Source: Porphyra umbilicalis (lineage: Eukaryota; Rhodophyta; Bangiophyceae; Bangiales; Bangiaceae). From it: DNA of 64,000 nt. The position numbers and the translations under genes are program-made. A model generated the notes under the pieces. That model made no database searches and was not told the DNA's origin. It saw nothing but the letters and a program-made list of their open reading frames with translations. The stretch lies in contig KV918769.1 of assembly GCA_002049455.2 (NCBI GenBank), forward strand, positions 434,001 through 498,000, read 5' to 3'. This document shows, in pieces, positions 1 to 56,941 of the stretch; the stretch's first letter is position 1, and each line of letters opens with the position of its first letter.

Positions 1-1103
1 GAGTGGATGCCAAGTCGTGGGTACGTTGGAAACTTGAGGTGCCTGAGAAGGTGGTGAGGGAGGGAGCGCGGCGAGGGGGAGAGCGGGGCAAGGCGGGGGG
101 GGGGGCAAGGGGGAGGCCATGCCGAGAGAGGCTGCCGTAGCTGCCGTGCATTTCTGCCGCGCCAGTCGCTTTCTGCATTCAGCGGCACCCTGCTCACACT
201 CAACCATCGCACTACCATTTTCCCTTCGCCTACTTTGTCTTGTGAGCAGTTGGAGGTGACCCCCTGCAGCTTGGCCCCGTGCATACCAGGACAACCAGGC
301 ACGACGCGCCCGTTTTTATGTGCCGCATCTGTAGGGACTCTTTCCTGTCGTGCTACGGCATGCTGGCGCTTCTGATGGGCTCCCACCGCCAGTCGAGCGA
401 CAGCTGGTTCGTCGCTTCCTTGGACCGCGTGCGTAAGGGGGAGGTGACCGACGTCGACCTGATGGTCCTCAACGCCACCTCTGACGGCGTCACCGCGGAC
501 GAGTGGGACCGACGCACTCAGTTGCGGGCGCTCAATGTGCACGTGAACGCTTTCAACAAGGACAAGCTGTCGCGGCTGGCCGGCGCCGAGTACGTCTTCA
601 AATGTCGCGACGAGATCGCGCCGGGTCTCACTCACCCAGCCCGGCGCGCGTACGCGCAAAGGTGCATGCAGCAGGTGGCCCCGCCCTCCGTTGCCCTCAA
701 GCCTGGAGCCGTGGTGCTAACCACAAGGGAGGTCGATGGTGTGCCTACCGCCACGCAGGGGGAGGTCAAGGAATGCCGCGGGTTGTCCGTTGTGTGTGAG
801 TTTTCAGGCCGGCTGGTGAAGGTCGCGGTTGCGGCGTTTGATGTCATTGACAACTGCGGAACGCGGCTGGCTACCCGCCACGCCATGCCTTTGATCCTTG
901 CTTGGGCCATGACGATCCACCGTGCGCAGGGGGCGACTCTGAACACGTTGGCCATTGACTTTGGTCAGCTCAACTGGCGCCTCGAGGGGCTCGTGTATTC
1001 TGGTCTGTTTCGCTGCCGCACACTCGAAGGGCTTTTTGTACGTGTCCTGCGCGGTGAGCATATTGTTGTGGACAGGCATGCGACGGCCTTTTATGATAGA
1101 TAA
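1..1103 (+). CDS. PIF1-family helicase, C-terminal part (copy A, continues left of window)
   Basis: Two exons are visible: 1-20 (end of an exon) and 250-1103. Spliced, the reading frame gives QVV-V-GGDPLQLGPV, the PIF1 motif with GD..QL followed by PV. It is followed by the FR/SD..F region, NVHVNAFNKDKLSRLAG near 540, the LKPGAVV box near 700, the PLILAWAMTIHRAQG motif near 890 and the arginine-finger-like motif GLVYSGLFRCRTLEGLF near 990. These are the landmarks of PIF1/RRM3 5'-3' DNA helicases. The Walker A and B part would lie left of the window. No stop or frameshift interrupts the visible part, so this copy may be functional. No Rep/HUH domain is visible, so a Helitron RepHel protein is not supported. 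It converges on gene X copy A, 67 bp away, exactly as in the second copy at 37.6-44.9 kb. Confidence 0.85.
21..249 (+). other. Intron in PIF1 copy A
   Basis: Donor GTACGT at 21-26 and acceptor GAGCAG ending at 249, preceded by a T/C-rich stretch. Removing these 229 bp leaves one exon nucleotide plus two and joins QVV to GGDPLQL in frame. The second PIF1 copy has an intron at the same place and phase (38026-38174). Confidence 0.8.
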
Positions 1104-1170
1104 ACGACGTCCGCCGCCCACCGCTCATCATCAAAAGCACAAGCACCAGCAGCTATCGGGTGCCACACGC

Positions 1171-3050
1171 TCACCCCTCCACAAAGTGAGCATCCCACAG
1201 CACGACCGACCGCCGCCTGATCCCCAGCGAGTCGAAAGCCGATGCATCTACCATTGCGCTTGGCAAAATATAGTCGGCGAAGTGCCTCTTGCGGAAACGG
1301 CTGTAGGCGGCGCTCTCGTAAAAGCAAGACGTGAACGGGTAGTCGGCATCCGCCATGCCCTCAGTGTACACCAACCCAAAAACTTCCACCGCGGGCATCT
1401 CGCTCACAACGACCGCGCGTTGCCCCGACTCGGCGTTTCCTGACTCGGCCTCCCTTGCTGCCAGCGCCGCCACGTTTGGTGGCGCGACGCGCCACACGCA
1501 GGCGGTTGCAAGGAAAATAGACCCCTCCTCCATTGGTGGCCGATCAAACAAACGCACACGAGGGCTGCGAGTGGGAAGAGAAAAGGACAAACGTGGAGCC
1601 AGTCGGTCAGTCAGGCCAGATACACGATGAGTGCCAATAGCAAAAGGGGTCTTCTAGGTCAAGCACGAGCCCAAGCACACCAAGTAGAGTAAAGAAAAAA
1701 GCAACGACACGCTTGCCACGTACCCAATGGAGCCAACCGGCCACGCCACACGATTCCCTGCTTGGATGGCGCTCAGCGGTACGGGTGTCGGAGATGGGTA
1801 GCCCTTCTCAATGCACAACCGCTGGTCCTGCCCGAAAGGGTAGATGGCATTCTCGTTGCCTGGCAAGATGCATGTCATGAACGCCGTGACCACTGTGGTG
1901 GGCGCCCCGGTCGAGTGGAACAAGGCGAACTCCGGGTGCAGCTGGGCACTGGCCCCCCGCTGGCCGTCGATCAGCAGCGTGCCGGCGCCCACACGCTCGA
2001 CGAGTGCCTTGGCCTCGTCACCAGTGCACGGTGTCGACTCTGCTGCAGTGTCGGCCCCGCCACCACTCGCACCACCGCCCACAACGCGAGAAGCGCCAAG
2101 ACCAGCACCTCCAATTCCGGCGCCCCCCAAGCCGTCACTGCCCGGGCCTTCCCCTCCCATACCGCTTCCCGGCGTGCCGCCTCCGGCCGAGTTGCCCCCC
2201 CCCGTGCCGGTTCCCTGCGAGTCGCCGCCGCCCATGGACGGACGGCCCCCATCCGACCCCCCCCGTCCCGTGGTTCCTCCCTCGGACGCAGCTCCCGATC
2301 CATCCCCGCTGTTTCTGCCGCTCCTGGCAGCGGCAGGCAGCCCACTCCGCCCTCCACGCCCCGCCGGGCCCCTGTCCGTACCGTCGTCACGGGCCCGCGG
2401 TAGCGAGGCTGGTGACCCGCGATGCCACTTTTTGCCGTTTTCGTTTTTGGAGAACGGTGTGGCAGAGGCTTGAGGAGCCTCCGGGTCGTCGGCGGCCTTG
2501 GGCGCCAGAGCGCCGCGTGCAAAGAGTCGCAGCAGCCACAAGAAGAACGGGTTGCGCTTAAAGTTCATGAGCAGGATCACGGCTAGGTACTCGTTGTTGA
2601 TCATGATGCTAGTGTTCTTGAATGCGGGGGACATGAAGGTCTCGGCCTTCCCGCGGACATTGAAAAGGACCTTCGCGCCGCGCGCAACCTCTGGGGTGAG
2701 CTGCATGTACGAGTGGTTGACCTTGCAGCGCGCCATGGCGTGCACCGCCTTCTGCTTTACCAGCGAGTCTACCACAAACTTGTACAGGCCGACGAACTCC
2801 AACAAGCGGTTGCGGAAGGAATCGTCCCGGTGGTCGTGGCACAGCTCCGCCCGGGTCTCCTTGACCATGTCATCGGGGATGGTCACGGAGAGGTTGATGG
2901 GGGGGGGGGGGTTGATGCGGCCGCGGCCTCGACCAGTCGCCAGCACATTGCGCGGCGGGGCGACGGTCAACCCAGGCAGCACGAAGTCGGGGGAGAGGAA
3001 GAAATTACGCGTGCCCTTGTCGCCAGCGGACGTCCCGGCACACCGTTGGA
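1171..3050 (-). CDS. Gene X copy A: spliced gene of unknown function, convergent with PIF1
   Basis: I do not recognise this protein. The last exon is 1564-1171 (TGA at 1171-1173). The preceding exon runs from about 3050 to 1724 and contains KGTRNFFLSPDFVLPG, a basic/hydrophobic stretch (SFRNRLLEFVGLYKFVVDSL, then FKRNPFFLWLLRLF) and a Gly/Ser-rich linker near 2050-2400. Joining across intron 1723-1565 gives PVGSIG-PRVRLFDRPP in frame. The carboxyl end carries AVEVFGLVYTEG, DYPFTSCFYES and SVVLWD. The same landmarks (SCIG-PRLKLCDRP, VVEVVAVCVEG, RYPFSALLYQS, VVLWD) recur in copy B at 44.0-44.9 kb, also tail-to-tail with a PIF1 gene. Conservation of splice sites and C-terminal residues shows it is a real coding gene. 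The amino-terminal exon structure is not resolved and the start is unknown. Confidence 0.65.
1565..1723 (-). other. Intron in gene X copy A
   Basis: On the minus strand the donor is ATTGG/GTACGTGG (intron begins at 1723) and the acceptor is CCCACTCGCAG (intron ends at 1565), with a strong pyrimidine tract. The exon leaves two codon bases that are completed by one base of the next exon (GG+C). Copy B uses the same phase and nearly the same donor context (ATTGG/GTAAGTGG). Confidence 0.75.
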
Positions 3051-4253
3051 GCCACCCCTACTCGACGCCGCGCCCGTACCCGTTGCTGAGGCTGCCGCTG
3101 CTGACACCGTTGACTGCGAGCCAATCTCCTCGGTCTGGCCACCTTGACACGAAGCCGCCGAGCGGTCGTCGTCGAGGGGCGTCAGCTGCACGAGGGTGTG
3201 TTCCACAGCATCACCATCGTCGACGGCTTCGTCCAGCCGCCCCGTCCCCGCAGCGCCGCTCTGAGATAAGGTCGCCCCGGGCGCCACACCAGGGGGTGCC
3301 ACAAAGCTCGGCACCTTCTCCCCCACCGCGTCACCAGCCATCGCAGTAGCACGCACAGCAGCGCCACTCGGCGTGGCTCCGAAAACGGCTCCGGCTCCAA
3401 AAGAGGTTACAACCCCATCGTTGGCTGCGGCGTCGTCCGTAGCAGCGCCACCGTCGTGGCGTTCGGCACCACCGCCACCCAAGCTGCCACGGGTGGCCCC
3501 GTTGACACCTAAACCGCCTCGTCCCGCCTCAGCGCGGTGAGCACGACGCTCAACGTGCAACAGTCGCAAAGCGGAGGATATGCTGTCCACTCCAACGGAG
3601 ATAGCCGTCTCAGTCTCTGCGAAGGCCGAAGCCTGTTGGATACTATCGATATAGCCAGACCCAAACAGCAGCATCCCCCCCGGCATATCGACACGGCAAA
3701 TCGTCACCGCAATGAGGACCTCACCGTCAGTGGCCGACTGCAGCTTGGTACACGTCTCCTGCAAAATGTGAGCCAAAGGGACAAAAGCATGGCCAGCCGA
3801 GTATCCAAAGAGGCTGGCAGCAACAGACACCGAAGGAATCACATCCATGTGTCCCATCGTGGCAGCAGCTCGTACCGCACCGCCGGACAACCTCACAACA
3901 GACCGCCAGGCCACAGTTACTTGACGCCCCGCCCCCCACGCACCTCCCCCCTCCACGCTGCAACAGCGCCAGCGCTCAGGGATTGAAAGCATGCACCCAG
4001 CACCACCAGCGCCACAGCTGCGGGAGCCGGAAAAAAGAGCGGCCTGCCGGCCGCCTGAGAAGCTCACCGACCCGCTCAAAAAAAAAAAACAGCCAACACG
4101 AAGAGAGGCCACGGAGATGCCCCCTCGGTGGTCGTCATACACGGTGGGGGACGGCGACGGCGACGGCGACGGCGACGGTCGTTGGGGGACAATGGGCGCG
4201 GGGGACGGGAGGGCGCAGCGCCGTGTCGCGCCTGCCACGTGAGACGGGGACAC
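2967..4253 (-). CDS. Open frame upstream of gene X, possible 5' exon(s); function unknown
   Basis: A 428-codon open frame precedes the 442-codon frame of gene X and overlaps it by 16 bases in another phase, so the two may be exons of one gene joined by an unrecognised intron. No ATG begins the frame, and the first codons read through a GGCGAC hexanucleotide repeat at about 4150-4178 (Ser-Pro repeat), so the outer end is probably not coding. The stretch near 3630-3830 (MDVIPSVSVAASLFGYSAGHAFVPL, then DGEVLIAVTICRVDMPGGMLLFGSGY; each only partly shown here) looks like folded protein rather than a GC-rich shadow frame. The rest is Gly/Ala-rich. I recognise no family. A continuous A-run at 4079-4089 (T-run on this strand) may mark an untranslated or intronic segment. 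Confidence 0.3.
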   Translation of the reverse strand: MSPSHVAGATRRCALPSPAPIVPQRPSPSPSPSPSPTVYDDHRGGISVASLRVGCFFFLSGSVSFSGGRQAALFSGSRSCGAGGAGCMLSIPERWRCCSVEGGGAWGAGRQVTVAWRSVVRLSGGAVRAAATMGHMDVIPSVSVAASLFGYSAGHAFVPLAHILQETCTKLQSATDGEVLIAVTICRVDMPGGMLLFGSGYIDSIQQASAFAETETAISVGVDSISSALRLLHVERRAHRAEAGRGGLGVNGATRGSLGGGGAERHDGGAATDDAAANDGVVTSFGAGAVFGATPSGAAVRATAMAGDAVGEKVPSFVAPPGVAPGATLSQSGAAGTGRLDEAVDDGDAVEHTLVQLTPLDDDRSAASCQGGQTEEIGSQSTVSAAAASATGTGAASSRGGSNGVPGRPLATRARVISSSPPTSCCLG

Positions 4254-4804
4254 ATCAGCGTGCCACGTTGGGTGGGAAGTTGTCCAGGAGAGAGGTTCTG
4301 ACAGTGCAGTGTCAGGTTATCTATTGCCTAATAGAAATCGTGCCTGAAGGGTTGGATTGCGTCGGCGAGTGCCGAAGGGTTGGATCCAACCCTGCCTTTC
4401 CCTCTGTTGTGTGAAGCGTCCTATCTCCGTATGATACCATTCAACAACCACAAAACTCGCCATGGGCGCTGCTGCTGTCCGTTCTTGCTTTCGAGCATAC
4501 CGATGTGCTCGTGAGAGCCTCCTGAGGTCGTGTCCAATTTTTTTTTTTTCTCGACGAGCACTCTCATACTGTTTTTGATTTACGGAGCAAACGACAGGGT
4601 CACCATTCAACAACCATTCCCTCCATCCCGTCTAAAGCAGTCGCCTCGCAGTGTCGAACGATAATTGGAAGACTCATTTGATGTTTGACCATCCCTTACC
4701 GAACGCCGCGAACCAATCAAACGACACTTCATTCTTCGCTTTGACGCTCGCACACAAACAAACACACACACACAAAAGCAGAACACGGACACCACATCTC
4801 CAGC
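4254..4804. other. Non-coding stretch, nothing recognised
   Basis: No plausible gene on either strand. It holds a short duplication of a GGTTGGAT(C/T) motif near 4350-4390, a T-run near 4538-4549 and an ACAC-rich patch near 4750-4775. Confidence 0.5.
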
Positions 4805-5818
4805 TCAATCCGATGCAACGCCGAGGCGTGCGCGCTGCCTTGCGGCAGCCATCTGGAGCTTACGCTTGCGTGGAGACGGGTTTGCCCGGCTCAATCTGTG
4901 GCGCGCCTCCTCCACGGCGTCGGCGCAAACAACGCGCCACGCCTTCTTAAACCTGGCCGCCTCGAGAGCAGCGTCCCGCTTGGCCTTGGTGGCCTTGTTC
5001 GCCGCCACCCGTGCAGCTTTCTCCCGCCGCCCCTGCTCCTGCGCAGCGGCCTTGACTCGCTTGTCCTCCTCCATTTTCTCAAGGGCGGAAATCACATCCG
5101 GCGCCGTCAGGTTGACGGGCCGCCCAGCAGTCGACAGGGTGCCCTGGATGATGGTGGGCTGCTTGAGTTTCTTGCGCATTGCAGGGACTGCACGGTCGGC
5201 CAACAGCTGTCAGTCGACGTCCTTTGCCGTGCGGTCGGCGCCCTTGTTGACCTCCTCCAAACAGACCTTTTTCGGGTCCAATGGCCACATTCCGACGTTA
5301 GCAAACGCGGCGGCTAGGTAGGAGGGGAAGAAAGCGTGGTCGGCGGCTTTCTTGATGCAGTCCATCAAGTCCAGCACTGTGAAGCTGCACCCGAGACCGA
5401 CACACTCTCCCGACCGGCTGCAAACTTGACGTCGAATGGCTGGCTGGAAGCTGCCGTACGCCGACTTGTTATCTAAAGCTTAAATGAGGTGCGAAAGTTT
5501 GGAGGGTTCTGCAATAACATGCACCTTAGCCCGCACAAGCGCCAGGAAGCCGAAAGCCGATAGGAGGACTCTTGCTGCGTCTAAAGCCAGCAGCTTATTC
5601 TCCTCTGGGTAGTAGCTCTTGGCGAAGGCGGCAAACTGCTGCGCCCACACGTCAAAGACGCCACGGTCGAACCCCGGCGGGTCCCGCCGCACCACCACCG
5701 CCGAGTCGTTGAGACGCGACGCCAAAGCCACCTTTCTCTCCTTGCCGTCCTCCGTCACCTGCACGTAGGCGTGGCCGCTTGCGCTGCCGGCCACCACCAG
5801 AAAACGAGGCGCGACCAT
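4805..5818 (-). pseudogene. Remnant of a pogo/Tigger-like DDE transposase (C-terminal part)
   Basis: Read on the minus strand in one frame: PEENKLLALDAARVLLS resembles the LLDGHxSH region holding the second catalytic Asp of the DDE_1 (pogo, Tigger, jerky) family. It is followed by SHLI-stop-ALDNKSAYGSFQPAIR, where families read SH.LQPLDV..F..lK..., then FTVLDLMDCIKKAADHAFFP, then AFANVGMWPLDPKKV, the signature 'aFr..Gi.Pfnp' segment, and a Lys/Arg/Ala-rich tail (near 4830-5090). In-frame nonsense codons are TAA at 5480-5482, exactly where Gln is expected, and TGA at 5210-5212. The frame begins directly at the gypsy LTR boundary (5819), so the N-terminal half was removed by or lost after that insertion. 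It cannot encode a working protein. Confidence 0.65.
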
Positions 5819-6184
5819 TGTGGCAACAAAGAAGGCGCGAACAAATACCCTAGAACCACACTGACAGTACAAAAGAGAAGGACCTAAAGGGTCAACCTAC
5901 CGAGAGGACCTAGACGGCGCAAAGGCGCTCAAAGGCTAGGACTCTAGAGGGACGCCAAGATTTAGATGGCGAGCAAGACGGGGCGGCGCGGGGCAAGGCC
6001 GGCGCCGTAATAACAAGACGAAAACAGACGAAAAGAAGAGACGTAAGAGTAACCCCTGGCCCAAAGAGGGGGGCTACTTAGGGAGGGACAGCCGTCCCAC
6101 AGGCCGCAATCCGAAGTACGGAGAGACGGGCGCAAGTCCCGGCAGGGGCATAAGTACTGGACTTAGCCCCTGCCGAATGCAACA
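5819..6184 (-). repeat. 3' LTR of gypsy element G1 (366 bp)
   Basis: Plus-strand ends are TGTGGCAACA and GCAACA, so on the coding strand it runs TGTTGC...TGCCACA with TG/CA termini. Immediately inside it is CCCCCCTCGG (6185-6194), a polypurine tract GAGGGGGG on the coding strand. The first 175 bp (5819-5993) match 15463-15636 closely; the remainder has no counterpart at the right end. Confidence 0.8.
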
Positions 6185-8886: not shown

Positions 8887-11800
8887 CTAAAAGCGGAAGA
8901 TCACGACGCGCCCCACGGGCGGCGGGGAGGAGGCGGTGCGGCCTGCCACCGTGAACGTGGGATAGGGGGGGTTGAGTTGCACCCGAGCGGCGCAGTAGCG
9001 CGTCGCGAGCGTCCACCAGGACTGGTGTTGCCAGCGCGGGGCGACGAGGGTGATGTCACATGGATAGGAGGTGATGCGGGCGAGGACCTGCGGTAGGAAA
9101 GAAACGAGGGGGTTGGCCCACCCGTTTTCGACCGCCCAGTCGACCAAGAACGCCGCGGCGCAGCCGCGCGCGGCGTCCGTGGGTGAAAGGGGCAGGAACC
9201 GGGGTAGATGGGTGGCCGCGGCAGTGGTAAACAGGTCGACCGTATGGGGGCCCCAGACCGCGTCGAGTTTCTCGAAGGCGGGGCGGCCCAATGCCCAGTG
9301 GGCAGCCGGCGGGTCGTCGGGAAACGCCGCGAGGAGGAAGGATGCCCAAAGGGCAGGGACGGTCTCCTCGTGGCTTTTCGCTGGGGACGCCCAGCGTACA
9401 TCGACGAGCATGGCACCCGTCTCGTCGGTGTGCTGCTGGACCGCGACGCAGACCCAATTGGGTTGCCGCGGGGGCGGGGCGAGGACGACCGGCGTCGTCG
9501 GGGAGGCGTCGTCGGGGAGCGTAAACTTCTTCTGCTTCGCTAAGCGGATGACGAGATGTTTCGGTAAACCCGAAATGGGTTCCCACGAGTCATCGCCCCG
9601 GCCATAAGTGGCCCACCGAACTTTCGCCACGATGCCGTTATCGGTGTCACGGCGAATAGCCAACAGCCGGTCGATTGCCCAGGTCGGACCCTCATCGGAG
9701 GAATTCACGTCGGGGAGCGGGGCCTGTGTAAGCCGATGCGGCTGGGCATCCCGTCCCGGCACCGGGCGCGGTGCTGGTGTGACGTCGTTCCTGTTGACCC
9801 GTTCTTCGCCATCGCCTTGGTCGATTACGAAGTAGGTGCCGTCCGTATCGAGAATCGCGAACGAACCAAGGGCCTTGGGCAGCAGCTTGTGCCCCCCGCG
9901 GTGAGAGCGGAGGAAGACGAAGTCACCGACCACCAGGTCCTTGTTCTTCGGCCGTACCCGGCTGTCCCAGTCTCGCTTATAGCGCGCTTGGTACTTGTTA
10001 AGGGAAGCGCGCACCGTCGGGATGAGCTTTTTCAAGCCCTGGATGATGGCGCGCTTCACCATGAGCGGGGAGCCATCGGCGGATGCAAGCGGGGACGAGC
10101 CAGCGAGGCCCTCAACCGTGAGGTTGGGCATACGGCGGGGGATCAGGAGGTCGAACGGCGCCATACCGGTGGCCCTATGAGGGCAGGTGTTGTACGCCAG
10201 GCTCAGGGCGGGGAGGAGGCGATCCCACTGTCGAGGGTGCTCCTCACAGAAGGCCCGGATCTGGTTCAGCAGCGTACGGTTATACCGTTCCACCTGACCG
10301 TTGGTCTGCGGATGGTAGGGCGTCGTGTACTTGCACCTCGAGCCCAACATCTCCATGACGGCGCGGAAGAACGAGTTGTCCATCTGCCGACCCTGGTCCG
10401 ATAGGACGCAGTCGGGGGGCCCGTAGGCTGCGACCCATGCGGTCAGGAACGCCGACGCGACCGTGACGGCGGTGATACGTCGGAGCGCAACCGTACGGGT
10501 TAGCTTCGAGAAGCGGTCGGACATGACGAACACATACCGGTTGCCTTCAACCGTGTTGAGCAGCGGGCCGAGGATGTCAATGCCAACCTCGGTCAGCGGT
10601 TCCTTTGGCGGGAGCAAGGTCATGGGGGACGTATGCCGTCGCTCCTGCAGCCGGTTCTTCGCGCACGGCGGGCACTGCCGGACGAAGTCGCACAGGTCGA
10701 CGATCACCGACTCCCAATAGAAGCAACGCTTCATGGCGGCGTACATCCGCTGCACCCCAGGGTGACCTTTGGTCGACGGGTAGTGCTCGAGATCCATCAC
10801 GCGGGAGCGTAGGGCCTCGGGGATGTATACTTGCATAACGTCCGTCGTTGGCTGACGGCGCACGAGGCGGCCTTCCTCATCGAGGACGAACCACGTCGGT
10901 TTTCCCGAGTCGATCACGGCGCGTAGCTGCTGGCAACGGCCATCCGTGCCTTGTGCGCGAAGGAGCTCCTCCGCTGTGATAGGGGGAGGCGGTACCGGCC
11001 CCGAGCAGTTGTTGGCGTCCGTGCCCCTTGCGGCCTGGGCCAGCAGGAAGCATGGGATGTCGTCGTCCAGCTCCTTCTGGTCCAGACCCGTCGTGCGTAC
11101 GCGGGACAGGGCATCGGGGAGGTGGTGGTTCGCTCCCTTCTTGTACTTCACCTCGAAGTCGAACTCCGCTAGACGGAGGCGCCAACGGAGCAGACGACCG
11201 GTGGCTGTCGTCAACCGGTAGATCCAGCTGAGGCATTCGTGGTCGGTACGCACCGTGAACCGCGAGCCCTTCACATAGTGTCGGAGGTGGAGCACGGCCC
11301 AGACGAGGCCCAGGCACTCCTTCTCGGTGGCCGAATAGTTGCTTTGCTCGGGCTGCAGGGCGCGGCTGTAGAACCCCACGGGTTTCAGCTGGCCGTCCTG
11401 CTGCTCTTGGAGCAGCGCGCAACCCAGTTGGGTGTCGCACGCATCGACGACGATGGTGAAGGGCGCTCCGAGGCGGGGGAGCGCCAGGACCGGCGGATGA
11501 AGCAGCGCGTCGCGTAGGCGCGTGAACGCTGCGGCCTGCGTCTCGGTGAACGTCGGGAGCGTGTCGCCGTACGCCTTGTTCGTCAGCTGGTTCAGGGGCG
11601 CTGAGATCCGTGGGTAGTTCGCGACGAAGCGGCGGTACACGTTAAACATGCCGAGGAAGCTGCGCAATTGCGTCTTCGTCCGCGGGTGACCCACCTTCGC
11701 GAGCGCCTCCAGGTTCTTGTTATGCACCCGCATCTCCCCGGGGGATATGATGTGCCCGAGGTACTCGACGGACGTCTGGAAGAACTGGCCCTTCTTGGCC

Positions 11801-13323
11801 TTCAACGTGACGCCGGCCCGACCCAAGCGGGTCAGGGCTTCGTCGAGCGCTTTCACGTGGTTCTCCGGGGTGTCGGAGAAGACGATGACATCGTCGAGGT
11901 AGACAAGGCACGTTTGCCAAGTCATCCCGGACAGGATGATGTCGAGGGCACGTTGGAAGGTCGCGGGAGCGTTGGTGAGGCCGAAGGCCATCTTCAGGTA
12001 CTCATACGTGCCCATGTGACAGGTGAAAGCGGTCTTTTCGATGTCGTCCAGGGCCATGGGTATCTGCCGGTACCCGGCATTGCAGTCGAGCGTTGAGAAG
12101 ACGCGGGCGTCTCCCAGCGAGTCGATGCAATCCTCCATCCGCGGGATGGCATAAGAGTCCTTCTTGGTCACCGCACTGAGACGACGGTACTCAACGCAAA
12201 AGCGTGGCGACCTGTCTTTCTTGGGGACGACAACGACAGGGCTTGCCCATTCACTGGTACTTGGTCGGACGACCTTGGCTTCCAGCATCTGATTTACCTC
12301 GTCACGGATCATGTCACGGGCATGGTGACCCGCGCGGTACGGTTGCTGCCGTATCGGCTTCGTCCCGGGTTGGACCTCCACGCGGTGGACGGTGGCGTCG
12401 ATGGAGCCGAGCGTCCCGTCTAGCATATACGCATGGCGGCGGATGAGTGCCTGGACATCCGGGAGTAGCCGGTCGGGTACTCCGGAGAGATCAACTTGGT
12501 CTAGCACCGCTTTTGCGGCCGCGGCGGGCGATGCCGCGTCGTCAGTGACGAGCAGGCAGTCGACGTCGTCGACCGGGCTGACGGTAGCGATGATGGTTCC
12601 CTTGCGGAGGCAGACCGGTTTGTCGCTGAGGTTAGCGACTTCAACGCTGAAGCGTTGCCCCGGGACAACGACGGCCAGGCCGCGCGCCGTTTGACAGCGG
12701 TGGTGCTTGTGAAGACGGTTGTACGGCGCGACTAGGACCTGACCAGCGAGGTCGGCGGTGACCAGCATGGCCGTACGGGTCCGCGGGGGCAGCATCCGCC
12801 GCTGCGCGAGGCGCACCGTCGCATCCCTCGGGGATCGGCGGCGTTCTCTCTTGCCGCGTGCCGTGCACGACACCGAAGCATCGGTGCACCATCTGACGCG
12901 TTGACGGCGCGGGTAGAGCGCCTCGACATGGCGGTTGATGAAACTGGTGCCGAGCAGCACGGGTACGGCGAGGCGCTGGACGACGACAAAGTCGACGTCC
13001 GCGGCGAAGCCACCGGAGCGCACGCAAAGGGTGATCATGCCTCAGGCGGAGATAGGGTTTTGTTTTGCGTCCACAATGTGGGGCAAATGAGGGCGTCGAT
13101 GCAACCGCCGCTCCCAACCCTTGGGCAGAGAGTCCACCCGAATGATCGAGGGCCCGGCGCCTGTATCCAGGGTCGGTGTCATCAGCCGCATCCGCGCCTC
13201 GTCAAAGCCGAGGGCCGCGGGCATGGTATACTGCCGGTATACCGGAGCCAAGACACGGTGTACCCGTATCTTCGGACCCTGCGGACTGGGGGCGGCACGG
13301 GGCGGCCGAGCCGCTAGCGGCAC
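8887..13323 (-). CDS. pol: pol polyprotein of gypsy element G1 (PR-RT-RH-INT-chromodomain-Dam-like)
   Basis: One frame on the minus strand. Protease: LDTGAGPSII near 13155. An in-frame TGA at 13042-13044 precedes the 1383-codon remainder. RT: VVVPKKDRSPRFCVEYR, TLDCNAGYRQIP, GLTNAPATFQR and catalytic YLDD near 11895. RNase H: VVDACDTQLGCALL, FTVRTDHECL, PDALSRV. Integrase: zinc finger H-x-H...C-x-x-C near 10660-10800, DILGPL, DQGRQM and YHPQTNGQVERYN for the D,D-35-E core. A chromodomain follows near 9540-9700 (KVRWATYGRGDDSWEP), marking a chromovirus. About 170 further residues (8890-9400) include WGPHTVDLF, GWANPLVSFLPQVL and LVAPRWQHQSWW, resembling the Dam-like module of DIRS-type polyproteins. 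The first codon of the frame is not ATG; pol begins about 8 nt after the gag stop in a different frame, so frameshifting or reinitiation is implied. Confidence 0.9.
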
Positions 13324-34125: not shown

Positions 34126-35030
34126 ATCAGCGACTCGTTCCCTGAGCACCTGTCTACGGAGCTGGTGCACCTGCTGAGAATGCTGCGCATGGGTGTCGCC
34201 TTTCTCACGACACTGAGGAGAATGAAAATCCTGCGGGCCACCATTGCGGTCTCCACGGCCGCATGCGTGGACAAGATGGTCGATTGCTTGATCGCCTGTG
34301 ACGCAGAGCGCCCTCTCGAGCCGAATTCGGCGGCGGTTTTTGGGTCGCGGTGGAGCCCTGCGGGGGCGACGAGGGAGGGGTTGCGGGCACGGCTTTTGTC
34401 AGTCTTTCCCGACGCGAGCGATGACCCCCTCCTGACGGGGAATGTGGTTTCTGGGCGGCCGCTGTGTCGCGCGTCGGCCTTCGAGCGGACGGAAAAGGCC
34501 CAGCTGGGAGTGTGCTCCAAGAATTACCAGGATGCGCGCAAGTCGCACTCGCCGGCGCCTTCATTATCTGCTTCGCGTGCAGCCACCCAAAGGTGCTTGG
34601 CTTTGTCGTGCTGGACAAGCGTGAGGGTCCCCCGGCGTTGCTTGACGCCGTCATCACGCGCCTTGCCAAGCTGCCGCGGTTCATCGTGTACGACTTCGGG
34701 TGTGGGGCCGTGCGGTCGGCGCTGGGAAAGCTGCCGTGGCTACTCGCGGGGTCGACGGTGGTGAGCGATGCATTCCACGTCATCAACCACGTGTGCAGCA
34801 AGTTCCTCGCTCCCGCGTTGTTTTCCGTGCTCAAGCACATCAACACTGATGCACACGAGCAGCGCAATCGTGCAATCAAGGCGCTGAAGCGTGTGCTGGC
34901 GGCGAGCGGCCAGGTGAGTACACGAGCATTCTCACCTACCTCATGTTGGTGCACAACATCCGGGCAGCCGCACGGGATGCGAGCACCGCACCTCTCCCCG
35001 AGGCGTTTGACTTCTCCACCATTTATTTTT
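34126..35030 (+). pseudogene. KDZ-type transposase, catalytic region
   Basis: After VCSKNYQDAR (near 34512) a one-base shift leads to AGAFIICFACSHPKVLGFVVLD, then REGPPALL. FIVYDFGCGAVRSALG near 34681 gives the first catalytic Asp (families: YD.aC). VVSDAFHVINHVCSKFLAP near 34760 gives the second Asp with D.fH..nH.C. NTDAHEQRNRAIKALKRVL near 34843 gives the Glu. A further shift near 34917 is needed to reach EYTSILTYLMLVHNIRAA. This D, D, E spacing with Cys/His context matches KDZ superfamily transposases. Two frameshifts mean this copy is dead. An open frame continues to 35414 without recognisable features. Confidence 0.65.
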
Positions 35031-37583: not shown

Positions 37584-38025
37584 ATGAACTCCGCTCCCCG
37601 TCTGGATGAGTTGCAGCTGCAGCTCGCTAGATACGTGCTCGGGGGCCGCAATGTTGCTGCTGTGGGGGCTGCTGGATGCGAAAAGAGCACTCTGCTGTCA
37701 CTCATCGTGAGCGTGGCGCGCCAGAAGCTGGGGGATGACGCTGTTGTGGTTCTTGCTTGGGCAGGCTCTGCCGCTCAGCTCGTTGGTGGCCAAACCGTGT
37801 CGTCCCTTTTGCGCGTGTCGGTCGGAGATGTGTGCAAGGTGCCCATACTTTCGAGTATCCTTGCCAATCCCGAGGCGAAGAAGGACATTACCGCCGCCCG
37901 GCTCGTCGTCATCGACGAAGCCCTCACCATCCCTGGGCGGTGGTTTGACCGCCTCGAGTACGTGTTTCGACGCACGGCTCTTCCTACAATGTAATGCCGA
38001 CCTTTCGGCGGTCGCACCGTTTTTG

Positions 38026-38174
38026 GTACGTGCTCCCTGCTGTTTTTATCCCAAGCTGGCGACGCGATTCTGTGTGGATGCAAATGGTATCGTCATTATT
38101 GACGATGGATGTATGCCAGTGGACTAACCATACGTTTCTCTCTACTTTATGTTTGGTCCTTTTCATTCTGGCAG
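38026..38174 (+). other. Intron in PIF1 copy B
   Basis: Donor GTACGT at 38026, acceptor TTCATTCTGGCAG ending at 38174. Splicing joins PFGGRTVF to AAGDPLQLPV in frame, the same position and phase as the intron at 21-249 in copy A. Confidence 0.8.
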
Positions 38175-38502
38175 CTGCGGGTGATCCTCTGCAACTGCCC
38201 GTTTTCAGGGTGACCGACACGTCAGCACGGAAGGGGGCGTACTCGAAGCGGGCAAGGGACGACAGCTTCTTCTCCACGTACGGAGATGTGGTAGAGCTCG
38301 TCATACAGCACCGCCAGGCGTGGGGGGACCCCTTACTCTCCATCCTTTCCCTCCTGCGAGTTGGCGATTGCCGGGAAGAGGATCTGGCCCTGCTAAACTC
38401 GGTGTGGGCGGACGAGGCAGACGAGTGGCCGGACTTCCAGCGCCTTCGCGCAAATAGCAGTGAAGCACAAGCGTGCAACAACAAGCGGCTCGCGGAGTTG
38501 GT

Positions 38503-38579
38503 TGTTGAACTGGTGATGTTCAGCTTCCGAGACCAGTCACACCGGTCATGTGGCGTAGTTGCTTTTTGACCTCTCAAAA
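38503..38579 (+). repeat. 5' LTR of copia C2 (77 bp)
   Basis: Starts TGTTGAAC and ends CTCTCAAAA, where the 3' LTR has CTCAACA. The rest matches the 3' copy with about ten differences, including the shared core CCAGTCACACCGGTCATGTG. Confidence 0.85.
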
Positions 38580-38598
38580 GGTTATGGGCCCAGCTCGC
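38580..38598 (+). promoter_or_regulatory. Primer-binding site of copia C2, half-tRNA type
   Basis: GGTTATGGGCCCAGC directly follows the LTR. It is complementary to the anticodon stem-loop (GCTGGGCCCATAACC) of eukaryotic initiator tRNA-Met rather than to a tRNA 3' end. Internal priming from a cleaved tRNA-iMet is established for Drosophila copia. Confidence 0.8.
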
Positions 38599-38700
38599 GC
38601 GTAAACCCCACGCTCGCGGTGCTACTCTCCCACACAACGCCCCCCATCCGACGCTGCCCCACGTGTCGGACGCGCCCTTCCGCGGCCTGCCCTTGCCAAG

Positions 38701-39579
38701 ATGGAGGGGCTGATGGCCGACGCGGCGGACCGTTCGTTCTGCCGGGTGCCCAAGCTGGACGAGGACTTCAATACATGGGCTCTGCGTTTTCAGGCCCACC
38801 TTGTGACCAAGGAGCTGGGACAGCCTATAGAGGAGCCGCCCCCGCCGGAGCGAGAGGCGGCCGCGCTGGAGAGGTACAACTGCAAGGATTGCAAGGCGCT
38901 GGCAGAGATCATCCTTGGCGTCAAGGCCCAGCACCTCCCCACCCTGGTGGAGGCGCGCACGGCCCGCCAGGCCTGGGAGGCTCTGGCGGAGGCGTTCCAA
39001 AGCATAACCAGCGCGCGAAAGGTCCAGCTGACGCGTGAGCTCGCCACCCTCCGCATCGGCGACAACGAGGCGCTGATGACCTACGTTGGACGGGCCAAGA
39101 CTCTACGAGCGGAGCTCGGCGGCGCTGGTCACCCGGTCGAGGAGGACACGGCGGTGATGCACGTGTGAGCCGGCCTGCCCCCGGCCTATAAGACGGTAAC
39201 GACTGTTCTGCTGGCGGCGGGAGTGTCCCTGCAGTGGGAACAGCTCCTCCCCGCACTGCTACCCGTGGAGGTGGAGCAGAAGGAGGCGGCCCACAAGGGC
39301 GGCGGGGAGCCCTCTGTGGCGTACGGCGCCTATCGGCCCGTTAGCAGTGGCGGCCGCAGCGGCTCACGAGCGTCAGCCACGCCTGGCGCCAAGCAGGTTC
39401 TTTGCTGGTACTGCAACAAGCCGGGCCACCGCCGCCACGAGTGCCGCAAACTGGCGGCAGACAAGAAGCGGCGGGATGGCGGCGGCGGCGCTCGCGGTCG
39501 GGGTCCCGACGATGGCCCTTATGGGGCGGTGGCGTTCACGACTGCTGTAATGAAGGAGCGCTCTCCTAAGGCAGCTTAA
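38701..39579 (+). pseudogene. gag: Copia C2 gag
   Basis: ATG at 38701 (MEGLMADAADRSF). Typical copia gag (UBN2-like) pattern: FNTWALRFQAHLV, ARQAWEALAEAFQS and LTRELATLRIGDNEALMTYV (20 shown). TGA at 39166-39168 interrupts VMHV-stop-AGLPPAYKT. CCHC knuckle CWYCNKPGHRRHEC is near 39405. TAA at 39577 ends this part, but the frame continues into the protease. Confidence 0.8.
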
Positions 39580-40407
39580 GCCGAAGCGGCCAGCCAATCG
39601 GAGTCGCGTAGCCATGGGCAACACACGTGGATAGTTGACTCCGGAGCAAGTCACCACATGACCAACAAGTCGTCCAATTTGGCAAACTACATCCCGACCG
39701 ACGGGGTCTTTGTGACGCTGGCAAACGGCGAGACGGCCGAGGCTGTGGGCGAGGGGTCTCTGCCCGTGACCACCCGGACGGGCGTCCCGTTCGCCGTGCA
39801 GGAAGTGCTGTACGTGCCCCGCTTGGCGGATAACCTGCTGTCGGTGAGGGCAGTCACCCGGCACGGAGGCGCGGTCAACTTTACTGCCGACACCTGCGCG
39901 GTGCTCTCATAGTCCACAGTGGTGGTGACGGGGACCCCCAATCGCCGTAACCAGTACGGAGTGGTGGTAGAGGATACGTCGACGGCCGCCGCGGCCTATG
40001 GCAAGGCGTCCAGCGAGGTGGCGCGCCTCTGGCACAGGCGCAACTGCCACCTCAGCGCCGCCAACCTCCGCACCGTCAGTACCCTGATCGAGGGCATGGC
40101 GTTGTTGCGGACGACCGACATCGCGTCCACAGAGGGGGCGCTGTGCCACCCGTGCGTTGTGGGGCGTAAGCACGCCGAGCCGTTCCACACCGAGGACGCG
40201 GCCACCAGGAAATTGGAGCTGATCCACATGGACCTCGGTGGGCCCCTCTCAGCCTCGCTGGGCAACGCCCGGCACTATGTCGCCGTGCTGGACGACGCGA
40301 CGAGGTTGGTTGTGGCCTCCGCCCTCAAGGCCACAAGCGAGGCTGGAAAGGCGGTCCAGGCCTGGATCAACCAGCTGGAGCTCCAGGCCGGCGCACGTAT
40401 CTAGCTC
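39580..40407 (+). pseudogene. Copia C2 protease and start of integrase
   Basis: WIVDSGASHHMTN near 39628 is the DSG protease site. VLYVPRLADNLLSVRAV follows, then TAG at 39910. LWHRRNCHLS and CHPCVVGRKH form the HHCC zinc finger (40030-40170). MDLGGPLSAS near 40229 has the first integrase Asp. TAG at 40402-40404 precedes LVRCDGAGE. Confidence 0.85.
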
Positions 40408-42790
40408 GTGCGGTGTGACGGTGCTGGGGAGCTCGTCTCTGCTGATATGCAGGAACTTTACTCCCGGCGGGGGATCCGCCTCGAGCCGACGGCGGCCTTC
40501 ACCCCGCAGCAGAACGGGAAAGCCGAGCGCCTCAACCGGACACTGATGGAGCGCGTCCGCTCCATATTGGCGGAGGCCGAGCTTCGCGAGGAGCTCTGGG
40601 CCGAGGCGCTGATGGCCGTCGTGTACACGCGCAACCGCGGGCCGACGAGCGACGGCAGGGCTACCCCTTTTGAGCTCTTCCATGGCAAATGGCCGGACGT
40701 AGCCTGCCACCGCGTGTGGAGGAGCGTCGCGTACGCGCTCAAGCCCAAGAGACAGCAGCGGAAGCTGCAGCCGAAAACCATGGTTGGTCGCGTCGTCGGG
40801 TACGTAGCCGAGGGTAGCGCGTACCGCGTCTACAACCCCGCGTCGCGCAAAGTCGTGGTGCGGCGTGACATCGTTGCGGACGAGACCTCGGTGCGCGCAC
40901 CGGGGAAAACGAGTGCCCCACCGGCGGGCATGGCTCCTGACAGCGGCGCAGATTTGACTGCCGAAACCGACGACCAATCAAACACCACCACTGGGACTCC
41001 GGACAGCACGCCGAGCCAACCCGACAGCCCGCCACCAACTCCAAGTCCATCCGAGCCGGTCGACCAAGTCCCGAAACCTTCATCGGATCCGAAACGTGGC
41101 GGGCCTCATACCTCAACGCTTGGGCGCGGGCGCTACCCGGAGTGGTTGCGGCGACCCAAGCCCTACTTTGACGACGAGCCCGGGGCAGCCAGCCAGGCCG
41201 TCATGACGGCCTTTACGAGCGAGGCCCTGCGCACCGTGCCGGCCACGGTGACGGAGGCCATCACACGGCCCGACGCCCACCTGTGTCGCGAGGCCATGCA
41301 GGATGAACTGCGGTCGCTGGCGGAAAACAACGCGTGGGAGATGACGGACCTCCCGCCAGGCGCTAAGCTGACCGGCAGCCGCTGGGTCTTCGACCTAAAG
41401 CGCGACGCGGCCTGCAACGTGGTGTGGTACAAGGCGCGGTTTGTGGTCCGGGGCTTCACCCAGAAGCCCGGCGTCGACTACGACGAGGTGGGGGCGCCCA
41501 CACCGGCAAAGGCAACGGTGCGCGCGGGCCTCGCCCTCGCCGCCGCAAGGGGCATGGAGATCCACTGCCTAGACATCAAGGCCGCCTATCTCAATGCCAT
41601 GCTGGACAAGGACGTGTACGTGGCGCAGCCAGAGGGCTACGAGGTCGGCGGCAACAAGCTGGTCTGCTACATCCTCCGCGCCGTGTACGGCTGCAATCAG
41701 GCCAGCCGCTTGTGGGGCAGCCACTTTGCCACCACATTGGTGAACGCGGGCGCAGCACGAGCAGCCGCGGACCCCTGCCTCTTTGTCTGGACCCACGTGG
41801 TCCACGGCGTAATTTTCACCCTGGTACACGTGGACGATGTACTTCTGTCAGCCAAGGATCGGGCGGGAATCAAGGCAGTTGAGGACATCATTTCATCGGT
41901 TTACACCACCCGCGACATGGGGGAGGTGGGGGACTTCCTCGGAATGCGCGACACCCGTGATCGGGCGGCCGGCGCCCTCACGCTGACGAGCCCAGGCTAC
42001 ACCCGCGCCCTCGTCGGGGCGCACGGGCTGGGAAGCGCCAACCTGGCGACGACGCCCATGGCCCCCGGCACGGTGCTGACGCGCACAGGGACTGACCTGC
42101 TGGACGCGGGGGGGCCTGCGTTCGCGGAGCTTGTGGGCGGCCTGTTATACCTGGCGACCACAATGCGCCCAGACATCGCCTTTGCTGCTGGCGTGCTGTC
42201 GCGCTGTATGCACGCGCCAGAGGAGGGCCATTGGCGCGCCGCCAAGCAGGTCCTGCGGTACCTCGCGGGCACGCTCGAACTGGGCCTCTGCTTTGGCGGC
42301 GGCACGGGCTGGAGGCCTGCTGCGACGCGGATTTGCGTCGGACAGAGAGACACGCAGGTCCACGACGGGCTGGCTGTTCTGCTGGAACGGCGCCGCGGTG
42401 TCCTGGTCCAGCCGGCGGCAACCGACGGTGTCGACATCCACGGCCGAGGCGGAGTATATTGCCGCCGCGGCGGCCACGAAGGAGGCCTTGTGGCTCCGCA
42501 AGCTCCTGGCGGACCTGGGGGAGCCGATCACGACGATCCAGATCGGGGAGGACAACAACGCCTGCCTGGCTATGGTGGCTAACCCGGAGGGTACCGGGCG
42601 GGCCAAGCACATCGATATCGCACATCATATGGTGCGGGACCGCGTTGCACGCGGGAAGGTGGCATTCTACCACACGCCGACGACGGAGATGGCGGCCGAC
42701 GGATTTACCAAGCCGCTGCCTGTGGCCGCCTTCGCCGCTTTACGGTCTCGCCTGGGCGTACGAGCCCAAGAGCACGCGACGCGAGCGTGA
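40408..42790 (+). pseudogene. pol: Copia C2 integrase core, RT and RNase H
   Basis: VRCDGAGELVS and QQNGKAERLNRTLMERV give the second Asp and the Glu of integrase. After a Ser/Pro-rich linker the RT reads GSRWVFDLKRDAACNVVWYKARFV (partly shown), CLDIKAAYLNAMLDKDVYVAQ (partly shown) and FTLVHVDDVLLSAKD, with HVDD in place of the usual YVDD. RNase H begins in frame, shifts near 42310, and continues TSTAEAEYIAAAAATKEALW (20 shown), GEDNNACLAMV and AKHIDIAHHMVRD to a stop at 42788-42790. The 2.2-kb stretch before the shift is uninterrupted. Confidence 0.9.
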
Positions 42791-43281
42791 CGGGCTGGGT
42801 TGCGGCCGTGGGGGAGTGTTGGCGCCGGTGGCGGCCGCAAGCCCAAGACGTGTCAGCCGCATTGCTGAGGTAGGTCGGGCTTTCTGTGGCACGGCCTGAT
42901 AATTGTGGCATGGCCCGATGGTGTAAGGAGTGAGTTTTATTGCGTTGTATTGCGTTGTTCCGCCTGCGTGTGCGGCGGCGCCCGCGGGAGCATACCTGAG
43001 CGCGCACCGCAGGTAGGCGCGACCGGCACGGCGGGGTGGGACCGCGGGGGCACCACGAGAGTACAAGAGCGCGGGGAGCGAGGGCCGAGTGGAACCCGAG
43101 GTCTAAAGTGCGCGTGTTTTTTGACAGGTTACGCTCCCAGCTCGCGCTGGATTTAGTTCTGAGAGGTCGCAAGTTCGAGTTTCGCCGGGGCTGCGCCCCA
43201 GGAGGGGGACGGAGGAATTTGCAGGAGAGGCAATTCCGAGTCGTGTGTCAGACGAGCCTGGCCCTGAGGAGCTGGGGGGAG
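42791..43281 (+). other. Copia C2 3' untranslated region with polypurine tract and tRNA-like blocks
   Basis: The tract GAGGAGCTGGGGGGAG directly precedes the 3' LTR. Blocks resembling tRNA-Leu(UAG) occur in order: GGCCGAGTGG (43083), GGTCTAAAG (43100), CGCGCTGGATTTAG (43143) and AAGTTCGAG (43171). They are interrupted by extra sequence and the stems do not pair. Confidence 0.5.
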
Positions 43282-43357
43282 TGTTGAAATGTGATGTTCA
43301 GCTCCCCAGGCCAGTCACACCGGTCATGTGGCGCAGTTCGTTTTTGACCTCTCAACA
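43282..43357 (+). repeat. 3' LTR of copia C2 (76 bp)
   Basis: TGTTGA...TCAACA, perfect 6-bp inverted termini with TG/CA ends, preceded by a polypurine tract and followed by target-site CTGGT. Confidence 0.9.
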
Positions 43358-44025
43358 CTGGTCGGCGCGAGGGGCACGTTCACCTGTCGCGACGGGGTGA
43401 TGCAGTCTGAGGTGGGGCAACGCCGCGAGGGGGAAGCGCTGCGCTTGGACGCGTTGACCGGCGCGGAGGGGTCGCGCGGCGCTGGGGACTCGCAGGACTT
43501 AACCAGGTGGCGGCGGACACGGTGACTGTCAAGGTCGGTGCTCGGGTGGTGTGCACGATGTCGTTCGTTGGGGTGAAGACTGGAGCGCACGGGATTGTAA
43601 CCTCGTTTTTGTCGGGGGTGTCTGTCTGCTGCAAGTTTGAGGGTGTGGAAGAACCGCTTTGCATGCCGTTTGTGAAGTTTTCTGTGATGGACGGGAGGAG
43701 AGGGAGCTGGCGTGTCGATGGAAAGTACCCATTCTGCTATCGTGGGCGGTGACGGGGTCCCGCTCGCAGGGGATGACGATCCTCGAGGTGGCTGTTGATT
43801 TTTCCTGCACGCAGTGGACTTTGGATGGGTTGGTCTACGCAGCTTTGTCGAGGGCCGTTTCGCTTGCCTCTTTGGGTGTCCGTGGGCTTACCAAGGAGCA
43901 CTTCAAGACGAGCGCCAATGCACTGGCTTGGTACGAGCGGGTCCGCTCTGAGCGGCGTTTCCGTGCGGGATAGATTGCCGTACAGGCGTAGACAATCATG
44001 GAGAATAGAAAAGAAACCACAGAGC

Positions 44026-44940
44026 CTACTCGGAGAGATATCGATAGTCCCACAGCACCACCTGACGCGTCACGGCCCCGTCACTCCCATCGCCCCTCTC
44101 ACCCCCATCCCATCCATGTGTGTTGGAGCTGGCCGAGTACCAAAATGCGCGGCCTTGTATCGCTCAAACATCATCGACTGGTATAGCAATGCCGAGAAAG
44201 GGTACCTCTCCCTTCCACACCCGCCTTCAACGCAGACGGCCACCACCTCGACCACAGATACCTCTTGCTGCAATTGAGCAGCATGCTCCATGACCACGGC
44301 GGGTACGGCCCACCGCCAGATGATGGCAGTGCCCAGTAGACGGCCTTTCTGGAAGCTGTCCGCGGGCCTGTCGCACAATTTCAAACGCGGACTGCAGCGC
44401 ACATGAGACACAGAAAAGGGAGAAAGAGGCGCACGGAGTGGCATGATCAGAAAGGTCATGCACTGCTCGCACAACACAAAAAAGTATGCCCCGCACTCCT
44501 TCCAGTTTATGCACCCACTTACCCAATACAGGACGCTTGCCAAAGAAACTCTTTGCCACTCTGGGCAGCAGTACCAAACGTCAGAGGCACCGTCGCCGTC
44601 CCGTGCCCGGGAGCAACCAAGAACCCATTCTCATCGCCCGTCTGGTTATCGAGCACTGTCACTTGACAAGTGAAGATGAGATGGCGTGCCACAGGATCCC
44701 GCCCACAGTGCGAGCGCATGGGCAGCAGGACACCCGAGCCCACCAGCACATTGTCGACAAAAAGAGACGACCGCTGGGGGTGCGGTGAAAGCGACGGCAG
44801 CGGATCTCCCCGCTGCTGGCCTGTCTGACCCACGAGCTGCGTCGCATCAACAGCAAGCGCAACCGACACGCCCCCACTTGGCGTCCCACCAGCGCCGATA
44901 GCTGCCACTCGGGTGTTGCCGCCCACCCCCGCCGCGACGG
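44026..44940 (-). pseudogene. Gene X copy B: decayed paralogue of the gene at 1171-3050
   Basis: Exon 44940-44523 includes NVLVGSGVLLPMRS and ends WQASCIG. Intron 44522-44392 is removed. The last exon starts PRLKLCDRPADSF and contains GTAIIWRWAVP, SVVEVVAVCVEG, RYPFSALLYQS and, after a frame change near 44080, RQVVLWDYRYLSE before TAG at 44026-44028. These align with copy A (SIG-PRVRLFDRPP, TACVWRVAP, AVEVFGLVYTEG, DYPFTSCFYES, SVVLWDAHFVEG). It faces PIF1 copy B tail to tail, 52 bp away. The upstream part seen in copy A is missing and replaced by a 39-bp minisatellite from about 44930. Function unknown. Confidence 0.65.
44392..44522 (-). other. Intron in gene X copy B
   Basis: Minus-strand donor ATTGG/GTAAGTGG and acceptor GCGCTGCAG; 131 bp; same codon phase as the intron at 1723-1565 in copy A. 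Confidence 0.75.
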
Positions 44941-45834: not shown

Positions 45835-46310
45835 GAGCCGTGCCGGCGCCGGGGGCGGGGCGGCCGACCGTGCCGGGGAGCGGGGCGGGGCGGCCGACCG
45901 TGCCGGGGAGCGGGGCGGGGTGGCCGACCGTGCCGGGGAGCGGGGCGGGGTGGCCGACCATGACGGGGAGCGGGGCGAAGTGACCGACCGTGCCCGCAGC
46001 GGAGCGGGCTGGCCAACTGTACCGGGGAGCGGGGGGGGCGGCCTACCGAGCCCGTAGCAGGGCGGGGCGGCCGACCGTGACCGCAGCGGGGCGGGGCGGC
46101 CGACCGTGCACGCAACGGGGCAAGGCGGTCGACCGTGCGGGAAAGCGGGGCGGGGCGCCCGACCGTGCCGGGGAGCGGGGCGGGGTGGTCGACCGTGCCG
46201 GTATCCGGGGCGGAGCGGCCGAGCGTGACGTGGCGGCCAAACGTGCCGGGGAGCGGGGCGAGGCGGCGGACCGTGCCGGCGAGCGGGGTGGTGCGGCGGA
46301 CCAGGCCCGC
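45835..46310. repeat. 30-bp minisatellite
   Basis: About fifteen units of TGCCGGGGAGCGGGGCGGGG followed by CGGCCGACCG, diverging toward the right end. Long open frames here are a by-product of the 30-bp period. Confidence 0.9.
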
Positions 46311-56819: not shown

Positions 56820-56941
56820 CGGTTGCCGCGGGGAGGGCCCAACACCGGTGGTTACTCGTTTCCCTCCTCGGACTCAGAGGTGGTGGTGGGTCCGCAATTG
56901 GGCTCGGTATGCGGTTCCCGCTTCTCAAGCGGCGTCGCCTC

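Follow-up and report, generated by a model that had tools for sequence, protein, structure and literature searches.

Introduction

DNA transposons of the KDZ superfamily (Kyakuja, Dileera and Zisupton) encode a large transposase and are bounded by terminal inverted repeats (TIRs) and target-site duplications. In the part of PMC12730594 consulted, the duplications are given as 8 bp for Zisupton, 8 bp for an example of Dileera and 7 bp for Kyakuja, and fungal KDZ elements are described that carry TET/JBP genes. According to the sections of PMC12477816 available to us, algal KDZ elements are generally longer than 10 kb, reach up to 30 kb, contain nested insertions and carry accessory genes, most of which have no known function. 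Here we describe an element related to these in the red alga Porphyra umbilicalis. It was found in a stretch of 64,000 nucleotides (hereafter, the window; positions 434001-498000 of contig KV918769.1, designated C9; GC content, 65%) of a genome assembly of 83.8 Mb in 665 contigs.

The window element shares with Kyakuja, Dileera and Zisupton a large transposase, in which cysteine clusters (CxC4-like) may be present, a homologous core, TIRs and 8-bp duplications (7 bp in Kyakuja). Unlike them, it additionally carries genes for a PIF1-family helicase and for an orphan protein, which we call X, and its transposase is too distant for the Pfam KDZ model. Like the giant algal KDZ and EnSpm elements (Ectocarpus KDZ-1_Ec32, the 31.7-kb Chlamydomonas KDZ and the red algal EnSpm), it exceeds 10 kb and has accessory genes and nested insertions; PIF1 is not mentioned in the portion of PMC12477816 consulted. 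The fungal elements with a TET/JBP dioxygenase also pair a KDZ transposase with an accessory enzyme that recurs among them, whereas the window element has a helicase in place of the demethylating enzyme and resides in a red alga. Helitrons likewise encode a PIF1-family helicase for their own movement. In contrast, the window element has no Rep nuclease, possesses TIRs and 8-bp duplications, and encodes PIF1 as a separate gene.

We conclude that positions 1-4409 of the window very probably make up the rightmost third of a DNA transposon of the KDZ superfamily, some 12-13 kb long, which carries the PIF1 helicase and X. With the same high confidence, the order of the element is taken to be left TIR, KDZ-like transposase (+), PIF1-family helicase (+), X (-) and right TIR. 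This interpretation is based on the common termini, the 8-bp duplications, the three-gene order in related copies, the homology to the KDZ core, and purifying selection on PIF1 and X. The KDZ superfamily itself is known; no earlier description of the combination of transposase, helicase and X was found. The parts of the element in the window, which holds two copies, are as follows.

1..1103, +, 3' part of PIF1, copy 1: tail of an upstream exon, followed by an intron and the final exon (GDPLQL from 255), stop codon 1101-1103
1171..3857, -, gene X, copy 1: start codon near 3857, stop codon 1171-1173
4349..4409, right end of the transposon, with its outermost 33 bases at 4377-4409 (CAACAGAGGGAAAGGCAGGGTTGGATCCAACCC reversed) and a subterminal copy of the GGGTTGGAT repeat starting at 4349
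4410..4417, right target-site duplication: TGTGAAGC, with the left partner TGTGAAGG at C9:418689-418696 (7 of 8 bases)
34668..34913, +, remnant of the KDZ-like transposase, copy 2: YDFGCGAVRSALGK...DAFHVINHVCS...AHEQRN
37644..38502, +, 5' exons of PIF1, copy 2: end at the Copia insertion point
38503..43357, +, Copia retrotransposon inside PIF1 of copy 2: long terminal repeats (LTRs) 38503-38579 and 43282-43357
43701..43973, +, 3' end of PIF1, copy 2, beyond the Copia element: stop codon 43971-43973
44026..44393, -, C-terminal part of X, copy 2: stop codon 44026-44028, match 44058-44393 with one internal stop

Results

Convergent PIF1 and X genes in the window

A preliminary description of the window had reported that PIF1 (+) and X (-) lie tail to tail, separated by 67 and 52 bp in the two copies. 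The positions of the stop codons agree with this (1101-1103 and 1171-1173 in copy 1; 43971-43973 and 44026-44028 in copy 2). It had also placed a PIF1 intron directly before GDPLQL, in the same phase in both copies; the acceptor reads CAG, five bases and the GGT of GDPLQL in each, confirming both place and phase. The intron that it placed before PR(V/L)(R/K)L in X was recovered for copy 1, where it precedes PRVRLFD; this result concerns copy 1.

Copy 1 had been considered apparently intact. This does not hold, since the reading frame of X changes between the open reading frames (ORFs) 2967-4316 and 1654-3057, and only the 3' part of PIF1 lies within the window. The exon with the Walker A motif is located at C9:433636-434019, to the left of the window, and matches PF05970 with an E-value of 1.2e-7 (32 bits; cut-off, 25.9). 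X of copy 1 is composed of an N-terminal domain, a variable linker, a central domain (within ~2521-3024), a Gly-rich linker and a C-terminal domain, the last being split by an intron between ~1723 and ~1566.

Copy 2 is broken by the Copia element (38503-43357), which lies inside its PIF1 gene. The Copia LTRs are 89% identical over 75 bases, and the flanks TTGGT/CTGGT form a target duplication of four out of five bases. X of copy 2 is degenerate farther to the right, and the whole copy appears older than copy 1. The LTRs of the nested Copia are unusually short (76-77 bp).

Ends of the element and target-site duplications

Terminal repeats, which had not been found before, do exist: the right end is at 4377-4409 of the window, and the left end is outside it. 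In the end sequences of the copies, the left end is AGTGTGGGTAATGCCAGGGTTGGATCC and the right end, reversed, is CAACAGAGGTAATGCCAGGGTTGGATCCAACCC, also given as CAACAGAGGTAATGCCAGGGTTGGATCC; the ends of the C9 group have GGGAAAGGC in place of GGTAATGCC. The TIRs are GGTAATGCCAGGGTTGGATCCA or the variant GGGAAAGGC at both ends. A pattern search with the terminal motif (up to three mismatches) gave 18 places in the genome, as compared with six for the reversed control. On contig C28, which is ungapped at this place, the transposase gene and the element continue leftward, and the terminal motif is found at C28:428824.

Target-site duplications were scored at five sites (C1, C41, C298, C167 and C9), whereas one end alone was seen at C28, C463 and C70. 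Exact 8-bp duplications flank the elements at C1:869732-872122 (TGCAGCCG), C41:252206-254595 (CGAAACAG) and C298:86050-88443 (CCTATGTG; inverted). Seven of eight bases are shared at C167 (TGGCTGTG/TGGCTGTA; element 126918-140254, 13,337 bases) and at C9 (TGTGAAGG/TGTGAAGC; element 418697-438409). At C167, the transposase, PIF1 and X lie between one pair of TIRs. The elements on C1, C41 and C298, each ~2.39 kb, are in none of the match lists of X, PIF1 or transposase and look like non-autonomous derivatives.

EnSpm/CACTA elements, which have CACTA-like ends and duplications of 2-3 bp, were also considered as a class for the window element. Its ends are AGTGT...TGTTG and its duplications are 8 bp, and this class was rejected.

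Co-occurrence of X, PIF1 and the transposase in the genome

The genome was searched with three pieces of X and one piece of PIF1, and matches of X up to 2.5 kb apart were joined into loci. Every genome-wide count in this study is a lower bound, because only the best candidates were scored; the present one covers 81 of 102 PIF1 matches (the 21 weakest were omitted) and 64 of 65 transposase matches. The unit had been thought to be present twice. Clustering gave 29 X loci, although two of those on C9 may represent a single locus that entered the assembly twice. PIF1 lies convergent with X within 6 kb at 26 of the 29, and within 600 bases at 25 of these. X without PIF1 was observed at C70, where the right terminus and the transposase are kept, and at C264 and C559, both of which are weaker matches to the N-terminal part only. 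The transposase occurs within 30 kb on the strand opposite to X at 18 of the 29 loci, and both partners accompany X at 17. The chance expectation per locus is ~0.003 for PIF1 and ~0.011 for the transposase. A second gene order is present at C56, C77 and C168, where the transposase is ~10.5 kb from X, on the strand of X and opposite to PIF1.

The copies C9:428464-438409 and C463:28254-38177 are 96.1% identical over 9951 bases. Their right flanks differ, and their right ends diverge within a few bases of each other. C28 and C9 are 96.8% identical over 7479 bases, and the copy on C167 keeps all three genes together at ~75% identity. Between the outer duplications on C9, there are two partial copies, which are 98.9% alike over 4345 bases and stand on either side of a gap of 120 N; these near-identical copies lie 7.7 kb apart. 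The simplest reading is that two overlapping contigs were set side by side; a true internal duplication would also produce this arrangement. Judging from the PIF1 positions, the merged C9 element would be ~12 kb.

The transposase belongs to the KDZ superfamily

A long gene lies upstream of PIF1 on the same strand at C9, C463, C28 and C167; for copy 1 on C9, it falls to the left of the window. Its product has the motif series TADGIWLGYLKR ... FTICCACAHPK..GFVVLDKREGPPALL ... VYDFGCGALRSALGKL ... SDLFHIVNHLCSD ... AHEQRN. The search with this protein gave 41 relatives, as well as 65 matches in the genome; an annotated relative in Pyropia yezoensis (P0024) is 48% identical. One cysteine cluster is, by eye, SWIM-like. 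CxC4, a cysteine cluster that takes its name from KDZ transposases, matched 12 of 34 members and, in another scan, 15 of 36 (best E-value, 2.1e-5, below the curated cut-off), and the relative P0021 bears PF18717 in a precomputed table.

Because the Pfam KDZ model was silent, the transposase core was compared with the core of an unambiguous KDZ gene elsewhere in the genome, on C172 (Pfam KDZ, E-value 8.7e-9, above the Pfam cut-off). A profile of the transposase core, made from 34 of 36 aligned relatives, scored 40.7 bits against the C172 core in HMMER, whereas none of 999 decoys, made by shuffling or reversal, scored higher than 7.0. The hhalign probability was 94.8%, and 92.0% with the full alignment. 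The two cores have a pattern in common: G.F...C.H, YD..C, D..H...H.CS and the E of the last motif. Based on these scores and this pattern, we take the transposase to be a divergent enzyme of the KDZ superfamily. It may resemble Dileera. The predicted structure model of the transposase is too weak to bear on its fold.

Protein X

X consists of an N-terminal domain of ~110 residues, a central domain (..LYKFVVDTLV..FFLWLLGLFS) and the intron-split C-terminal domain, and has a basic stretch of the KGRKR type. Twelve relatives were found, one of which is the gene of the query itself, and none carries a Pfam domain or a name. The transposase relative P0021 and the X relative P0002 are most likely on the same contig of 11,490 bases. 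The profile search that had been suggested for X gave no match in Pfam or NCBIfam and no convincing match in PDB.

The ratios of nonsynonymous to synonymous substitution rates (dN/dS) were calculated with four or five copies per piece; C70 and C382, each with a stop, were left out for the central piece of X, and C463 for the N-terminal piece. Between C9 and C167, dN/dS is 0.17 for PIF1 and 0.19, 0.25 and 0.18 for the N-terminal, central and C-terminal pieces of X, respectively. Between lineages, it ranges over 0.16-0.28 for PIF1 and over 0.15-0.27 (N-terminal), 0.23-0.56 (central) and 0.16-0.33 (C-terminal) for X. X defines a conserved orphan protein family that travels with the element.

PIF1 as a wider partner of KDZ transposases

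The Pfam KDZ model matches 34 places in the genome at an E-value of 1 or less, C172, C24 and C162 among them; 19 of the 34 are above the cut-off. For the neighbour count, we used 88 of 102 matches of the window PIF1 query, 125 PIF1-domain matches and 63 of 65 transposase matches; the PIF1 matches omitted are extra pieces of loci already listed and weak matches, such as those on C110, C147, C131, C4, C205 and C13:214894. PIF1 lies within 12 kb at 29 of the 34 Pfam-KDZ loci (16 of the 19 above the cut-off), where 0.039 would be expected at each and ~1.3 in total. At 24 of the 34, it is 4.5-7.7 kb downstream on the same strand. PIF1 occupies the opposite strand at C172, C24 and a single KDZ locus of C342; at two further loci, it precedes the KDZ gene on the same strand and could be part of a neighbouring unit. 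As a yardstick, PIF1 lies within 8 kb of 23 of the 26 Helitron Rep loci. The spacing and strand suggest that PIF1 is inside the Pfam-KDZ elements. By a hand tally, the window PIF1 query reached 20 KDZ-linked PIF1 places and none of the 15 strong Helitron-type places that were looked up. Twelve CxC4 loci are above the Pfam cut-off (C117, C187, C419, C58 and others), and the CxC4 loci are perhaps a related group of transposases without a helicase.

A PIF1 helicase in a eukaryotic transposon is commonly read as the sign of a Helitron. Since 29 of the 34 Pfam-KDZ loci of one genome have PIF1 within 12 kb, the copy number of PIF1 cannot stand for the number of Helitrons. No paper linking KDZ with PIF1 came up in the literature search, although founding papers or closed journals may note the pairing. 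The term PIF1 is absent from the portions consulted of PMC12730594, PMC12477816, PMC9297572, PMC8226300, PMC12062965 and PMC7473861. Searches for Zisupton with PIF1-like helicase gave unrelated mentions only, and nothing was found for Porphyra with Zisupton.

Discussion

The two-gene unit was suspected to be mobile, and the terminal repeats, 8-bp target duplications and transposase gene support this. The further suggestion of a new transposon type stands as regards a mobile unit and fails as regards a wholly new type, the transposase belonging to a known superfamily. The genome search that had been proposed placed PIF1 beside X at 26 of 29 loci, and the proposed alignment of flanks gave common ends with 8-bp duplications for copies at different sites; neither X standing mostly apart from PIF1 nor copies lacking common ends was the outcome.

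Several observations weigh against the transposon as we have drawn it. No single copy is read through letter by letter from TIR to TIR, and the outer ends on C9 enclose two overlapping copies around the gap. The KDZ assignment depends on a comparison core from a single locus, C172; the Pfam KDZ model matches none of the 36 transposase relatives at an E-value up to 10 (with filters on, which drop most matches above 0.1), and the best CxC4 score is 24.8 bits against a curated cut-off of 26.9. PIF1 is not universal, being within 12 kb at just 24 of 63 loci of the window's transposase group and at one of 23 CxC4 loci (by position, C150, below the cut-off), and 61 of 136 PIF1 loci have no neighbour among the transposases and Rep sought. 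Because some of the KDZ loci are duplicates of others, the 24 of 34 do not count as independent events. The dN/dS of the central piece of X against C150 is 0.37-0.56, and the largest dS values are saturated. Recent copies (C9/C463 and C167/C70) have ratios of 0.6-2.9 with few changes, as in decay after insertion. Together with the low ratios between lineages, these values indicate that selection preserves X while the element moves and that X decays once a copy has inserted, which fits a working part or a useful passenger.

In the main alternative, PIF1 and X would be cargo that aids the persistence of the element, for example against silencing or in repair, and is not used in transposition, as is thought for the fungal TET/JBP genes; we regard this as a serious but somewhat improbable explanation. 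Accessory genes in algal and fungal KDZ elements are in line with it, as are the 39 of 63 transposase loci without PIF1 within 12 kb. However, PIF1 is found repeatedly in two KDZ groups, and in one of them, the Pfam-KDZ loci, its spacing and strand are regular (24 of 34), which is more than sporadic capture should produce; this argument is limited by the fact that same-family copies are not independent. We lean, with no great margin of certainty, towards a PIF1 that serves the DNA handling of the element itself.

The remaining explanations are far less probable. A rolling-circle RepHel element, of which PIF1 would be the helicase portion and X a captured gene, is suggested by the fact that transposon PIF1 helicases are best known from Helitrons, with which most Rep loci of this genome agree; but none of the 28 Rep matches is on C9, and the PIF1/X unit has TIRs, 8-bp duplications and a KDZ-like transposase. 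Helitrons are not known to have TIRs or target duplications. We consider this origin extremely unlikely, and hardly less so segmental duplication of two paired host genes that happen to have a KDZ element close by: the two near-identical copies on C9 would suit such a duplication, but copies occur on many contigs with common ends and target duplications, and the three genes are still together at ~75% identity on C167. An integrated fragment of a large DNA virus carrying PIF1 and X is just as implausible as a Helitron. PIF1-like helicases do occur in large DNA viruses, but no relative of X was confirmed in IMG/VR, no capsid or polymerase was present among the element ORFs scanned with Pfam, and the element has a DDE-type transposase and short TIRs.

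For the transposon, the following mechanism can be proposed. By analogy with other DDE enzymes, the transposase would bind both the short TIR and the subterminal GGGTTGGAT repeats, cut, and join with an 8-bp stagger. The putative role of PIF1 would be to unwind DNA at ends, at gaps or at stalled forks while the element transposes or while replication repairs donor and target. From its KGRKR-like stretch and three separate domains, X is tentatively seen as a nuclear DNA- or chromatin-binding partner of the transposase or PIF1, a proposal that could well be wrong; a part in anti-silencing would be our next guess. It is also conceivable, as a speculation, that the KDZ transposons of this algal lineage are three-protein machines in which a DDE transposase passes the DNA to a dedicated PIF1 loaded by X. 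If so, movement would be coupled to unwinding and replication, by copying or peel-off, and would not be plain cut and paste. With its known ends and its small non-autonomous derivatives, the element lends itself to a test of helicase recruitment by a DDE transposase.

Other features of the window

A broken ORF at 4800-5830 (-) resembles the end of a transposase of the pogo/DDE_1 type. Two retrotransposon polyproteins (-) at 8887-13041 and 53946-56873 contain reverse transcriptase, RNase H and integrase zinc-binding domains, and we take both to be Gypsy-like. The former has a weak match to a chromodomain (E-value 0.005, below the cut-off). Two tandem arrays are also present, one at 45838-46227 with a period of 30 and the other at 46924-49077 with a period of 164 and 13.2 copies.

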